Assembly (NCBI RefSeq): GCF_000473265.1
Contig: NZ_KI421511.1
Span: forward strand, 4,611,219 to 4,675,218
DNA length: 64,000 nucleotides
DNA from: Amycolatopsis thermoflava N1165
GTDB lineage: Bacteria; Actinomycetota; Actinomycetes; Mycobacteriales; Pseudonocardiaceae
Direction of reading: 5' to 3'
Each line of letters begins with the position of its first letter. Within the stretch, counting starts at the first letter, position 1. This document shows positions 50,103 through 53,697 of the stretch, in pieces. Under the pieces are notes generated by a model that was not told the DNA's origin, did no database searches, and saw nothing but the letters and a program-made list of their open reading frames with translations. The translations under genes and the position numbers were made by a program.

Positions 50103-50282
50103 TCACCAGTATTCGGGTGGGAGCTTTCCCTCGATGTCACGGACGTGCTCACGAGCGCACCGGGGACACAGCCAGTGCAGAGCACCGCCCTCGCGTTCGC
50201 TGACCCAAGCCAGCGTTGCCAGCGGGTCCTCGTCCGGCTTCCGTTCAATGCCGCAGCGAGAACAGGCAACCTGCTCGGTCAT
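50103..50282 (-). CDS. Small zinc-ribbon protein
   Basis: 59 residues from ATG 50282, overlapping the methyltransferase stop as ATGA. Two CxxC knuckles (CSRCGIERK and WLCPRCAREH) 30 residues apart form a probable zinc ribbon; the protein ends LPPEYW. A partner or regulator of the methyltransferase is possible. The longer upstream frame is shadow. Confidence 0.7.
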   Translation of the reverse strand: MTEQVACSRCGIERKPDEDPLATLAWVSEREGGALHWLCPRCAREHVRDIEGKLPPEYW

Positions 50283-51352
50283 CGGTGCGATCCGAAGTGG
50301 ACTGTCTGCGTTCCGAGCACGTAGATGTCCTCGCGGCTGCCCAGGTACTCGGCATCCGCTGGATCGAGGAGGCGGCGCAGGACGTCCCGATCTTCCTGCG
50401 TCAACAGCTCGTCGCCGTCCGATGCGAGCCAGGTGATGTGCTCGATCACGTAGTTGCGAACGACCTGGCTGGGTGGCGCAGGCAAGTCGACAAGACAACT
50501 GAAAGAGCCGACTTGCCCCAGCCCGGCTTTGACGAGGGCTGTGTACCAGCCATAGGGCATCCGGACCGAGCCCGGCATGCCGGCACGCATTTCTCCGAAC
50601 GAGTGATCGCGGGCTGCCAGTAGACGGCGCTCCAACCCGGGTTCGCCGACGCCCAGATCCCAGGGGAGGCAGTACGTCGGTGGGCTCCCCTCGGCCAGGG
50701 CTAGCGTTCCGCCCGACTTGAGAGCAGTGACCAGGCCGTCAACTCCGTCTTGCTGATCAGGGAGGTGATGCACCATCGAAGCGGCCCAGACCAGGTCCGC
50801 GGGCTGGACGAGTTGAGCGAGGTCCACCGACGCGACGTCGGCTCGGATGCTCTCGATCGAGACCTGCCCGGCGAACGCGGCGTTGGAAACAGCCTCGGGT
50901 CCGGGGTGGGCGCGGCCTACCGTCGCAGCCACAGCGCTCCCTGCCAACTCGGCTCGCGCCTGCTCGAGTTCGACCTGTTGCTGTACAGCTGGGGGCTCGC
51001 CTCGGGTCGCAGCCTCAGGGCTTTCCAGGTCCGCCCGAGCGATGCGTTCCGCGTTCACCCGCACGATGGCTGCCCTGGCAGCAGCCTCGGCCGCCTCGAG
51101 CAGCTCCGGAACGGCGTCGACGAGAACGAGCGTGCCGCCGCCGCGGCGGGCCAACTCGGCCGCGAAAGCTGCGCTCATCCCGCCGGCTCCACTACCTGCG
51201 TCGACGATCACCGGCTGCACGCCGAGGCGGCCGACCAGGCTGGCGGCGATTCTCGCGTGGGTCGCTGCATGAAGTTCATCGGCGCGGCGCAACGCCGGTA
51301 TCCGCTCGGCCCAGTCGATGTGATCGTGCGTGTGTGCGGCCATACCGGTCAT
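50279..51352 (-). CDS. Class I SAM-dependent methyltransferase
   Basis: 357 residues from ATG 51352, or from the second Met 9 bp on. Motif I VIVDAGSGAGGMS is near 48-60 and the acidic motif VLVDAVPELLEAA follows. Between the acidic motif and the motif II-like strand (RADVASVDL) lies an unusual insert of about 70-80 residues rich in Ala/Glu (ARADLESPEAATRGEPPAVQ...). Motif post-I/III are ADLVWAASMVHHLPD and LKSGGTLALAEGSPP. The substrate is unknown. A coupled zinc-ribbon gene follows. Confidence 0.85.
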   Translation of the reverse strand: MTGMAAHTHDHIDWAERIPALRRADELHAATHARIAASLVGRLGVQPVIVDAGSGAGGMSAAFAAELARRGGGTLVLVDAVPELLEAAEAAARAAIVRVNAERIARADLESPEAATRGEPPAVQQQVELEQARAELAGSAVAATVGRAHPGPEAVSNAAFAGQVSIESIRADVASVDLAQLVQPADLVWAASMVHHLPDQQDGVDGLVTALKSGGTLALAEGSPPTYCLPWDLGVGEPGLERRLLAARDHSFGEMRAGMPGSVRMPYGWYTALVKAGLGQVGSFSCLVDLPAPPSQVVRNYVIEHITWLASDGDELLTQEDRDVLRRLLDPADAEYLGSREDIYVLGTQTVHFGSHR

Positions 51353-51592: not shown

Positions 51593-51847
51593 CTAGGCGC
51601 GGTAGCGACCTGCGCGGCGGGAAGCCCAGCGGGCCACCCGGTCCCACCGGCGGGCGGCGCGTGCATTGGTGCGCACCGATCGCGGGCGGACGTCGTCGTG
51701 CAGGTCCTGTATTCGTGCTCTGGCCAGTTCTTCGTTGAGCAACATTCGGGTGATCTCCTTGGTCATGGGCGCGACCCCGGCGCGGGGACGCGGCGTGCTC
51801 GGATGCTTCGTCCACGACACGGGAACGAAGGGGGCTTCAGTACTCAT
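51593..51847 (-). CDS. Small basic protein coupled to whiB7
   Basis: 84 residues from ATG 51847, overlapping the whiB7 stop as ATGA; the internal ATG 51766 (MTKEITRMLLNEELARARIQ) may be the true start, giving 57 residues. The C-terminus is strongly basic (ARRWDRVARWASRRAGRYRA), suggesting nucleic-acid or ribosome binding. Similar short proteins occur elsewhere in actinobacteria without a known role. Co-translation with whiB7 suggests a part in the antibiotic response. Confidence 0.65.
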   Translation of the reverse strand: MSTEAPFVPVSWTKHPSTPRPRAGVAPMTKEITRMLLNEELARARIQDLHDDVRPRSVRTNARAARRWDRVARWASRRAGRYRA

Positions 51848-52245
51848 GCGGCTGCACTCTGCTGGTCAGTGCGGTTGCGGCGCTCGATGCGCTTCTCCGC
51901 TACGGGCGTTTCCACCGGGTTCTTGCGAGGACGGCCCCGCGGCCGCTTGCGCGCGACCACGGCACCGCGCTCGAAGATCTCGCCTCCCCAGACCCCCCAG
52001 GGCTCCCGCCGGGCGAGCGCGCCGGACAGGCACGCACTCCGGATCGGGCAGTCGGCGCACCGGCTCTTGGCCAGCTCCAGATCCGCCGGTGACTCCGCGA
52101 ACCACAGGTCGGCGTCGCCGGACCTGCAGGGCAGGTCGGCGTCCGGCGAGGCCACGGCATCGAAAAGCTCACCGATTCCGGATCCCGGAAGGGCGAGTTC
52201 GTCGGGTAACGCCTTCTCTGACGCGAAGGCGATTGCCGATGACAT
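51844..52245 (-). CDS. whiB7: WhiB7 iron-sulfur redox-sensing regulator of antibiotic resistance
   Basis: 133 residues from ATG 52245 with AAAGGAG nine bases upstream. The four Fe-S cysteines are C40, C63, C66 and C72 (CADCPIRSAC). The beta-turn motif GVWGG is at 84-88, and the C-terminal AT-hook RGRPRK at 103-108 distinguishes WhiB7 from other WhiB proteins. WhiB7 binds the main sigma factor and A-rich DNA next to -35 boxes to turn on intrinsic resistance genes. The position between an ABC1 kinase gene and uvrD2 matches mycobacteria. Its leader has an upstream ORF and a terminator. Confidence 0.95.
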   Translation of the reverse strand: MSSAIAFASEKALPDELALPGSGIGELFDAVASPDADLPCRSGDADLWFAESPADLELAKSRCADCPIRSACLSGALARREPWGVWGGEIFERGAVVARKRPRGRPRKNPVETPVAEKRIERRNRTDQQSAAA

Positions 52246-52293
52246 TCCCGTTCTCCTTTGTGTAGTAACGGTTTTTCGGTTGTGAGGTGGTAC

Positions 52294-52341
52294 AAAAACA
52301 CGAGGGCCGCGGATCCGAAACTCGGTTCCGCGGCCCTCGTG
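52294..52341 (-). terminator. Intrinsic terminator (attenuator) in the whiB7 leader
   Basis: Minus strand CACGAGGGCCGCGGA (52341-52327) and TCCGCGGCCCTCGTG (52313-52299) form a perfect 15-bp stem, 13-nt loop, followed by TTTTTGTA. It lies upstream of whiB7, between the upstream ORF stop (22 bp away) and the whiB7 start (49 bp further on). In this position it must be overridden for whiB7 expression. Confidence 0.9.
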
Positions 52342-52363
52342 AGCCTGTCTCCCTGACGGGGGG

Positions 52364-52600
52364 TCAGAGTCTGAGCTCCGGAGGAGCCAGCGGAACGTGG
52401 AGTCGGGTCTGCTTGTCGGTCGGGACGTACGCCGGCTTGACGGCGGACACACCGGTCCCGTCGAAGCGGTCACGCAGCCGGGCGAGGATCGGCAGAGCGA
52501 CGCCGGCAGTGCCGACGCCCCAGCCATTCGCGCAAGCCATCGCCGAACGGGCGAAGGGCAGAGCGATGCCAGGCTGCGTGACCGTGGTCGAAATGTTCAC
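52364..52600 (-). CDS. whiB7 leader peptide (upstream ORF), 78 residues
   Basis: Starts at GTG 52600 with AGGAGGT eight bases upstream, the strongest ribosome-binding site in this part of the window. It begins MNISTTVTQPGIALPFARSA and contains ACANGWGVGTAGVALP, then FDGTGVSAVKPAYVPTDK and a Pro/Leu-rich end (HVPLAPPELRL). The last codons precede the terminator hairpin by 22 nt. Ribosome slowing here would alter leader folding. Known whiB7 leaders have such an ORF; this one is long. It is not a shadow: there is no gene on the other strand. Confidence 0.85.
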   Translation of the reverse strand: MNISTTVTQPGIALPFARSAMACANGWGVGTAGVALPILARLRDRFDGTGVSAVKPAYVPTDKQTRLHVPLAPPELRL

Positions 52601-52683
52601 GTCCCAGCACCTCCTCTCGTCCTTCGCTCATCGCCGGCGGGCGACGGGCGTTCGCTTCGCGGGCGCTCTTCACCCGCTCATGC

Positions 52684-52722
52684 AGGCTATTGCCCCTGCC
52701 CGAGGCGGGGCAACTCATTTTT
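52684..52722 (-). promoter_or_regulatory. whiB7 promoter with A-rich WhiB7-binding element
   Basis: Minus strand order: AAAAATGAG (52722-52714), -35 TTGCCC (52713-52708), 18-bp spacer, -10 TAGCCT (52689-52684). An A/T-rich tract immediately upstream of the -35 is the recognition feature of WhiB7-dependent promoters, so autoregulation is expected. The predicted transcript would start about 75 bp before the upstream ORF. Confidence 0.75.
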
Positions 52723-52739
52723 CGCAGAACTTTCCCGGA

Positions 52740-53407
52740 CGACGAAGATCGTCCCTGAGCAGCGGTTCCGCCGCGCGAAGCGGCCCTTCTACGCGGTCAA
52801 GCGTGCGTGGCCCCGCGAGCTCGCCGCACCGCCGATGATCACGGTGACGAATGCAGCACGCAGCGCGGTCGTTCCGGCGAGCCAGGTTAGCCAGTTCCGG
52901 GGTGAGCGCGCGAGGTCTTTGCACGCCACAGGATGCTGACCGAGCTCGCGGCTGGGCGGGCCAGGGTTCCGGGCGAGTCGCCACTTCTGGCTGGCTGCCC
53001 GGTGGGACGGCCGCTTCTACCCGGCCGCTTGCCGAGGGCACGATCACGGGGGTAGTTGCGGTCCGCGACCGCTGCGAATCCAGCCAGGCCGGCAATGGTC
53101 GCCCAGCGGGTGGTAGAGCAGACCGGCCACCCGGCATGCAGCCGGTCAGTAGTGGCCGCCTCGGTAAGCAACGAGCCAGAAGCGGCCCCTCGATAGGCGG
53201 ATGGCCAGGAGCAGCCGCCTGGGTAGACAGTGGGGCGGGCGAGAGCGGTCGCCCTCGCGAGCGACCGGGCAGGAACGGTCACTCCACCCGCGGCGGCCAG
53301 GAACGGCCGCCGACCTCACGTCCGACCAGAACAGCCGGCTGCCGAACAACGGGGCAGGAACAGCCATCCCACCAAACGACCGATCAGGAACGGCCGCTCA
53401 TCGGACA
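52740..53407. other. Gene-free region upstream of the whiB7 promoter
   Basis: No supported gene. From about 53130 it contains increasingly repeat-like sequence (GGAACGGCC, GGAACAGCC cores at irregular spacing) that grades into the 26-bp tandem array. Mycobacteria have a small glutaredoxin gene near uvrD2; nothing similar is seen here. Confidence 0.45.
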
Positions 53408-53697
53408 ACCGAGAATCAGCCACCCACCGGGGAACCGAGAACCACCCACCCCCTGGACCACTGAGAAACAGCCACCACCGGGCGACCGAGAAACACCTAC
53501 CCACCGGGGAACCGAGAAGCGGCCGCCGGCCGGGCAACCGAGAAACAGCCACCCACCGGGCCACTAAGAAACAGCCACCCAGTGGGCCACCGAGAAACAG
53601 CCACTCACCAGACAGCCGAGAACCGGCCGACGACCGGGGATCCGAGAACCACCCACCCACTGGACACCGAGAACCGGCCACCCACCGGAACAACCGC
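53408..53697. repeat. 26-bp tandem repeat array abutting uvrD2
   Basis: The core CCGAGAAACAGCCACCCACC recurs with GAGAA (or a one-base variant) at 53411, 53437, 53463, 53488, 53514, 53540, 53566, 53592, 53618, 53644 and 53669, that is, every 25-26 bp. The array stops exactly at the uvrD2 stop codon (53698). Units vary by substitution and there are no spacers. Confidence 0.9.

Follow-up and report, generated by a model that had tools for sequence, protein, structure and literature searches.

The leader that precedes whiB7 on the minus strand of the window (the whole stretch of DNA that was analysed, 64,000 nucleotides from Amycolatopsis thermoflava N1165) is very probably an attenuator of transcription that ribosomes control, of the type already published for whiB7/wblC. 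Specifically, a WhiB7 gene lies downstream, an upstream open reading frame (uORF) with a Shine-Dalgarno (SD) sequence stands between promoter and terminator, the terminator is Rho-independent, and a computed antiterminator overlaps both the uORF and the terminator. The first-pass annotation had deduced termination by default and drug-induced read-through from the layout; uORF attenuation is indeed the best reading, but induction is not implied by the layout as such, and the antiterminator had been left unnamed. Now that an antiterminator has been identified and has support from covariation, the leader is a clear, ordinary example in Amycolatopsis of a known regulatory kind.

Attenuation of whiB7/wblC mediated by a uORF was reportedly described by Lee, Lee and Roe in 2022 and by Burian and Thompson in 2018. 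As told in an excerpt of PMC10727445, actinobacterial whiB7 typically follows a long leader that contains both a uORF and a terminator, the antiterminator being formed from overlapping sequences of these two. Excerpts of PMC9618640, PMC11550727 and PMC13393426 describe this mechanism as well, with Lee 2022 among their citations. The earlier statement that such attenuation is established in mycobacteria and Streptomyces agrees with these four sources, as well as with Dinan 2014 (PMC4128351, in excerpt), where attenuation at the whiB7 leader is presented as conserved and is shown for M. marinum and M. bovis. With the published systems, as far as these excerpts describe them, the window shares the uORF, the intrinsic terminator, the antiterminator overlapping both, the gene and a probable WhiB7-type promoter, and it may add an example from a new genus.

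Layout and promoter of the leader

The order that had been proposed for the minus strand (promoter, 78-codon uORF with an AGGAGGT SD, stop codon, 22 nt, hairpin with a U5 run, whiB7) is confirmed by the coordinates of the following features, given in the direction of transcription:

52717..52722, minus strand: AAAAAT box (putatively WhiB7/WblC-type), 3 nt before the -35
52684..52713, minus strand: promoter, with -35 TTGCCC at 52713-52708, an 18-nt spacer and -10 TAGCCT at 52689-52684 (sequence and genus conservation)
52609..52615, minus strand: SD of the uORF, AGGAGGT, followed by 8 nt and then GTG 52600
52603..52611, minus strand: 5' arm of the P0 helix, GGUGCUGGG (family covariation; in the window only the last three SD bases are involved)
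52565..52573, minus strand: 3' arm of the P0 helix, CCUGGCAUC, at about uORF codons 10-13 (family covariation)
52364..52600, minus strand: uORF of 78 codons, GTG 52600 to TGA 52366-52364 (translation, position and length comparison)
52325..52396, minus strand: antiterminator hairpin, GUUCCGC 52396-52390 with GCGGAAC 52331-52325, and nested within it GGC/GCC, CCUC/GAGG, GAGCU/GGCUC and P2 (fold and covariation)
52351..52369, minus strand: P2, the stop-codon hairpin CUCUGAC/GUCAGGG, with UGA in its 5' arm (covariation)
52294..52341, minus strand: intrinsic terminator with a 15-bp stem (52341-52327 with 52313-52299), an A.A mismatch (52326/52314), a 4-bp top and T5 at 52298-52294 (sequence and fold)
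51844..52245, minus strand: whiB7, 133 aa, ATG 52245, with a Whib domain, GVWGG and an RGRPRK AT hook (translation and Pfam)

A simple sigma-70 scan of 52200-53000 returned zero promoters, and the promoter call rests instead on conservation, TTG and TANCCTGC being unchanged in 19/19 genus genomes. The box reads GAAAAT in 12 of these genomes and AAAAAT in 7, the window among them; its six bases agree at five positions with the WhiB7/WblC consensus GAAAWY quoted in an excerpt of PMC7157823. An inverted repeat, TTGCCCC...GGGGCAA, spans the -35 and the spacer (52690-52713, minus strand) in 9/19 genus genomes, as counted by eye, and a stretch overlapping it was called a plus-strand terminator by the scan. 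No Rfam family reached its gathering score between 52200 and 52780 (best weak match E 0.028, plus strand).

The terminator folds at -40.1 kcal/mol (z -7.7; 0/200 shuffles equal). It had been described as a perfect 15-bp hairpin with U5; the 15 pairs and the U5 stand, and above them the A.A mismatch is followed by four more pairs and a 3-nt loop.

For comparison, 246 leader loci were collected from genus, family and class genomes and 80 named records, a sample skewed to the window's own family. Some terminator call, low-scoring calls included, was obtained at 243 of them, and 228 of the 243 were distinct. The hairpin start assigned by the script may be off by a few bases (in the window it read the stop-to-hairpin distance as 24 instead of the true 22 nt, 52363-52342). 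Leaders for which the script gave no credible terminator include L135, L136, L144, L146 and L171, the last being one of two whiB7-like genes (with L121) in the class genome G463.

By a rule that asks for 40-150 codons, an SD of at least 4 bases and a stop codon 8-45 nt ahead of the hairpin, 204/228 distinct leaders have a uORF and 24 have none. With an SD of at least 5 bases, 194/228 leaders qualify, against 3/816 control anchors shifted 150-240 nt upstream. Conservation in related genomes had been named beforehand as one of the points on which the reading would stand or fall, and the uORF does recur at the equivalent place in those 204 leaders. Their uORFs have a median length of 81 codons (quartiles 72-91, range 46-147) and end a median of 23 nt before the hairpin (range 12-38); the leader peptide of 78 codons, formerly called long, is typical.

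The antiterminator, the stop-codon hairpin and the proposed switch

Thermodynamic folding, which the first-pass annotation had suggested as a check, yields an antiterminator candidate at 52396-52325 that folds as a single long hairpin (-40.5 kcal/mol, z -3.64; 0/200 shuffles equal) and covaries. Its outer arm GUUCCGC lies 24-30 nt ahead of the stop, in codons of the uORF that specify Val-Pro, and the partner GCGGAAC in the ascending arm of the terminator; these seven bases and their partners are identical in 19/19 genus leaders. When the whole 3' leader is folded, the terminator is the more stable structure (-60.3 kcal/mol, versus -47.7 with the antiterminator forced), so that the antiterminator can win only if it forms first, which its upstream position allows. 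The energies, with the antiterminator at -40.5 early on and the terminator better at full length, fit a kinetic switch.

The two arms change together across genera. Among 110 dereplicated leaders, the 55 with a terminator core CGGAC carry GTCCG at the uORF end in 45 cases and TTCCG in 4, and the 47 with CGGAA carry TTCCG in 24 and GTCCG in 8; exact TTCCG is thus missing in 23 of these 47, and ATCCG occurs in none of the seven CGGAT leaders, four of which have GTCCG (a G.U pair). The pairing score over the 110 leaders is 16.67 with their own partners versus 15.11 with permuted ones (sd 0.24), and neither control window, one earlier in the uORF and one past the terminator, gave an excess (z 0.0 and 0.9). 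In predicted folds, the terminator core pairs with the uORF end in 98/109 dereplicated leaders (median z -2.67). A helix flanking the stop codon behaves likewise (125 leaders, 15.37 for own versus 12.66 for permuted partners, sd 0.27, z 10; control z 0.0); in part of these leaders, the best such helix is an outer one (e.g. CTGGAG/CTCCAG) and not the stop-codon hairpin. One hand-chosen set of weights was used for all helix scoring, and the z values are inflated by relatedness, for which reason the comparisons were repeated on a set holding a single locus for each genus in the family (labels hand-copied): for the antiterminator and for P2, with 39 genera each, 0/1000 permutations reached the observed score.

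Single leaders are less telling. The contiguous antiterminator helix was matched by at most 10 in 200 within-leader shuffles (the 5% level) in 13/158 leaders and by at most 2 in 200 in 2/158, and the window's own helix, taken alone, was matched by 52/200. By these single-leader shuffles the helix is unremarkable, and the case for the antiterminator rests on covariation. When the genome was searched with the antiterminator/arm pair as a pattern, a single further site, L256, came up.

The leaders of M. marinum and M. bovis, as presented in an excerpt of PMC4128351, share with the window a uORF about 10 nt after its SD, a T-tailed stem-loop and attenuation at the uORF 3' end, but the sequences differ: the antiterminators of the Mycobacterium leaders L204 and L232 read GUUCGUGG and GUCCGUG, and leaders of the same order (L139, L140 and L145) have GUCCGUGG with CCACGGAC (also read as GTCCGTGG with CCACGGAC).

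For the dynamics of the switch, namely the order of folding, the ribosome footprints, induction by drugs and autoregulation, we infer the following. Transcription would begin at the WhiB7-type promoter, and ribosomes trailing the polymerase would enter the 78-codon uORF. Those that reach the UGA would cover P2 together with the inside of the antiterminator (a ribosome parked there would leave part of GUUCCGC uncovered), so that the antiterminator would be blocked, the terminator would form and transcription would end ahead of whiB7. Where ribosome drugs or a lack of charged tRNA block or slow translation at an upstream point, GUUCCGC would pair with GCGGAAC before the second arm of the terminator has been made, and with the antiterminator formed the polymerase would continue into whiB7, whose product would then boost its own promoter. 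According to an excerpt of PMC10937400, whiB7 is a notable exception to the reduced elongation seen under linezolid. The uORF would, in this mechanism, act as a meter of completed translation in which the peptide itself plays no part. Such a meter, with a peptide of little importance as the comparison suggests, would account for the response of a single leader to starvation and to many ribosome drugs that are unrelated to each other.

The uORF peptide and rival explanations

A different role for the peptide is assumed by an arrest-peptide attenuator, in which the nascent uORF product, chiefly its Pro/Leu-rich end, would stall a drug-bound ribosome as in erm leaders. Pro-rich codons are plausibly slow, which would suit such a device, and the C-terminal residues are near-constant in the close clade. 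In eight close genomes, however, pN/pS is 0.66 for the uORF (0.65 for its middle), versus 0.11 for WhiB7 from the Cys motif onward (counts summed over all pairs, which are non-independent), and the conserved 3' stretch is static at synonymous sites too: the last 20 codons have pN 0.024 and pS 0.036, compared with 0.095 and 0.146 in the middle. Slow change at both kinds of site is what would be expected of an RNA arm. Elsewhere, the paired base of the antiterminator arm falls in all three reading frames (42/31/25 of 98 leaders), and inspection by eye shows the middle part of the peptide to vary between genera. Conservation of a stalling motif at the amino-acid level, as in erm-type leaders, is therefore not seen in the frame counts or in pN/pS, and an arrest peptide is very unlikely here. 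The first-pass annotation had pointed to the final Pro/Leu-rich codons at the hairpin; these encode the antiterminator arm and, since the peptide evolves loosely and the arm occupies all three frames, they probably reflect RNA structure, as judged from sequence comparison, rather than a stalling peptide. Stalling within the whiB7 uORF is noted in an excerpt of PMC12121999 as not yet tested.

A conserved N-terminal motif (PGHLMSG, PGTALSC) was considered as a peptide signal and set aside. It was read as RNA, since Leu/Met/Val are encoded as xTG in it and its codons are complementary to the SD flank.

Attenuation specific to one amino acid, of the trp/ilv kind, would have codons for that amino acid sense its shortage, and whiB7 does respond to amino-acid starvation (PMC11550727, in excerpt). 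General starvation sensing is compatible with the ribosome-controlled attenuator as well, the translated window uORF holds zero runs of three identical residues, and by eye no such run is common to the genera, all of which makes this kind highly improbable. The ilvB1 leader of M. tuberculosis, which is of that type, also picks antiterminator or terminator by ribosome position, but its uORF is short and, in the excerpt of PMC13236596, carries regulatory codons (LVVI) for the amino acids of the pathway, of which none were seen in the window uORF. Similarly, the attenuators of the ABCF genes are5sc and tiaA share with the proposed switch a drug-sensing uORF ahead of an intrinsic terminator, but as described in an excerpt of PMC12421871 their uORFs have 3-9 codons and are stalled at the start codon, compared with 46-147 codons in the whiB7 leaders analysed here. 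Finally, that the hairpin simply terminates an independent small gene, with uORF and hairpin having no role in whiB7 regulation, would agree with the very strong terminator fold, but is scarcely credible given the antiterminator covariation, the constant order in 204/228 leaders and the mechanism published in relatives.

Terminator mismatch, uORF start and gene neighbourhood

Two further features of the ribosome-controlled attenuator emerge from the comparison. Just above GCC[G/A]CGG, 104/121 dereplicated leaders with both arms readable carry a mismatch, either at the first position or at the second (the latter in 89), four further leaders having no readable second arm. In the window, A52326 is unpaired against A52314 in the terminator and pairs with U52395 in the antiterminator. 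More generally, the base of the ascending arm at this column pairs with its partner in the terminator in 32/105 leaders; among the 89 whose final 42 uORF nucleotides include TCCG, it pairs with its partner in the antiterminator in 70. Mutual information over the 105-leader set is 0.48 bits for the antiterminator versus 0.11 for the terminator. On this comparison of sequences, the mismatch-column base tracks the antiterminator more than the terminator.

The second feature is P0, in which the SD or its flank pairs with codons of about 10-13. Its versions within the family are GGTGGCC/GGCCACC, GGTGCC/GGCACC, GAGGTGACCG with CGGTCACCTC, and GGAGGTGTCGGC with GCCGACATCTCC. Of 77 family leaders selected, 76 were used (L088 was left out as a likely false uORF); own partners score 18.54 versus 15.58 for permuted ones (sd 0.38; 0/400 permutations), with no excess in any of four control windows, and a helix of at least 6 pairs is present in 60/76. 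The excess holds with one locus per genus (36 genera, 18.66 versus 15.89; 0/1000 permutations, control window 945/1000) and in the 48 leaders without the GCAC version (19.33 versus 16.47, sd 0.43). In the GCAC subtype, which includes many Amycolatopsis, there is none (28 leaders, 17.19 versus 16.76, sd 0.48); a single version shared by all would give this result, yet it lends P0 no support. Outside the family (73 leaders), the signal is clear when the partner is sought at +24..+64 (z 7.0), weak at +24..+45 (z 2.8) and gone in the control at +3..+24 (z -1.0). With an unrestricted window, 194 leaders reached p 0.05 in 26% of cases against swapped partners and in 35% against shuffles. RNAalifold found zero pairs in the 76 family leaders, for which a one-base register shift between types may be the cause. 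The window's own P0 has 9 pairs, three of them G.U, and is unremarkable (-18.2, z -1.12; 30/200 shuffles equal).

The TG-TCC that follows P0 is steady. GGC-N8-TG was considered as an RNA polymerase pause site, its match to the pause consensus being only partial. Helices of 11-13 pairs (including G.U) that sequester the SD at the uORF start occur in the class genomes at L155-L159, e.g. GGAGGTGAGTCCG with CGGGCTCACTTCC.

It is possible, though doubtful, that these two features are extra control elements of whiB7, through which the switch would respond to initiation in addition to elongation and would commit at an early stage. P0 would be a gate allowing only brief ribosome loading: the SD or its flank would be caught by codons of about 10-13 (to about 20 outside the family), and a ribosome would have to load before those codons are transcribed. 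Where ribosomes are scarce or blocked, the gate would close, no ribosome arriving late would open the antiterminator, and the decision on whiB7 would be locked. The mismatch, a terminator position unpaired where the antiterminator pairs, would slow the displacement of an antiterminator already formed. Part of the sensing would, if the start gate is true, take place at uORF initiation. Confidence in this reading was lowered slightly because uORF codons 2-16 show no synonymous constraint on the P0 part in the eight close genomes (pS 0.159, no lower than the 0.146 of the middle). The P0 helix and the conserved terminator mismatch may be new; a literature search on whiB7/wblC attenuation, mostly at the level of titles and abstracts, found no mention of a helix at the uORF SD or of a terminator mismatch, and neither appears in the excerpts of the published accounts compared above.

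The WhiB7 protein itself is readily assigned. Pfam Whib matches it at 1.6e-13, the AT hook scores 16.4 bits (under the cut-off of 17.4), and the nearest named loci, from A. thermalba and A. tucumanensis, stand at 98%. WhiB7 was found in 19/19 genus and 190/200 family genomes at E 1e-30, and in 246/296 class genomes at E 1e-18.

Upstream of the leader lies a gene for a UvrD-like helicase with an HRDC domain (55773-53698), and between it and the whiB7 promoter a tandem array of a degenerate 26-bp unit (53402-53696; 11.4 copies, 72% matches). Downstream, an 84-aa ORF (51593-51847, minus strand) has a start that overlaps the whiB7 stop as ATGA. Its product has zero Pfam or NCBIfam matches at E 1; similar small proteins with an EELARARIQ-like motif follow whiB7 at 58/144 loci with enough downstream sequence, 47 of the 58 with the 4-nt overlap (duplicates between named records and genomes kept), and the product is possibly a partner of WhiB7. 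Further downstream of this pair, a SAM-dependent methyltransferase-like protein is encoded at 50279-51352 on the minus strand.
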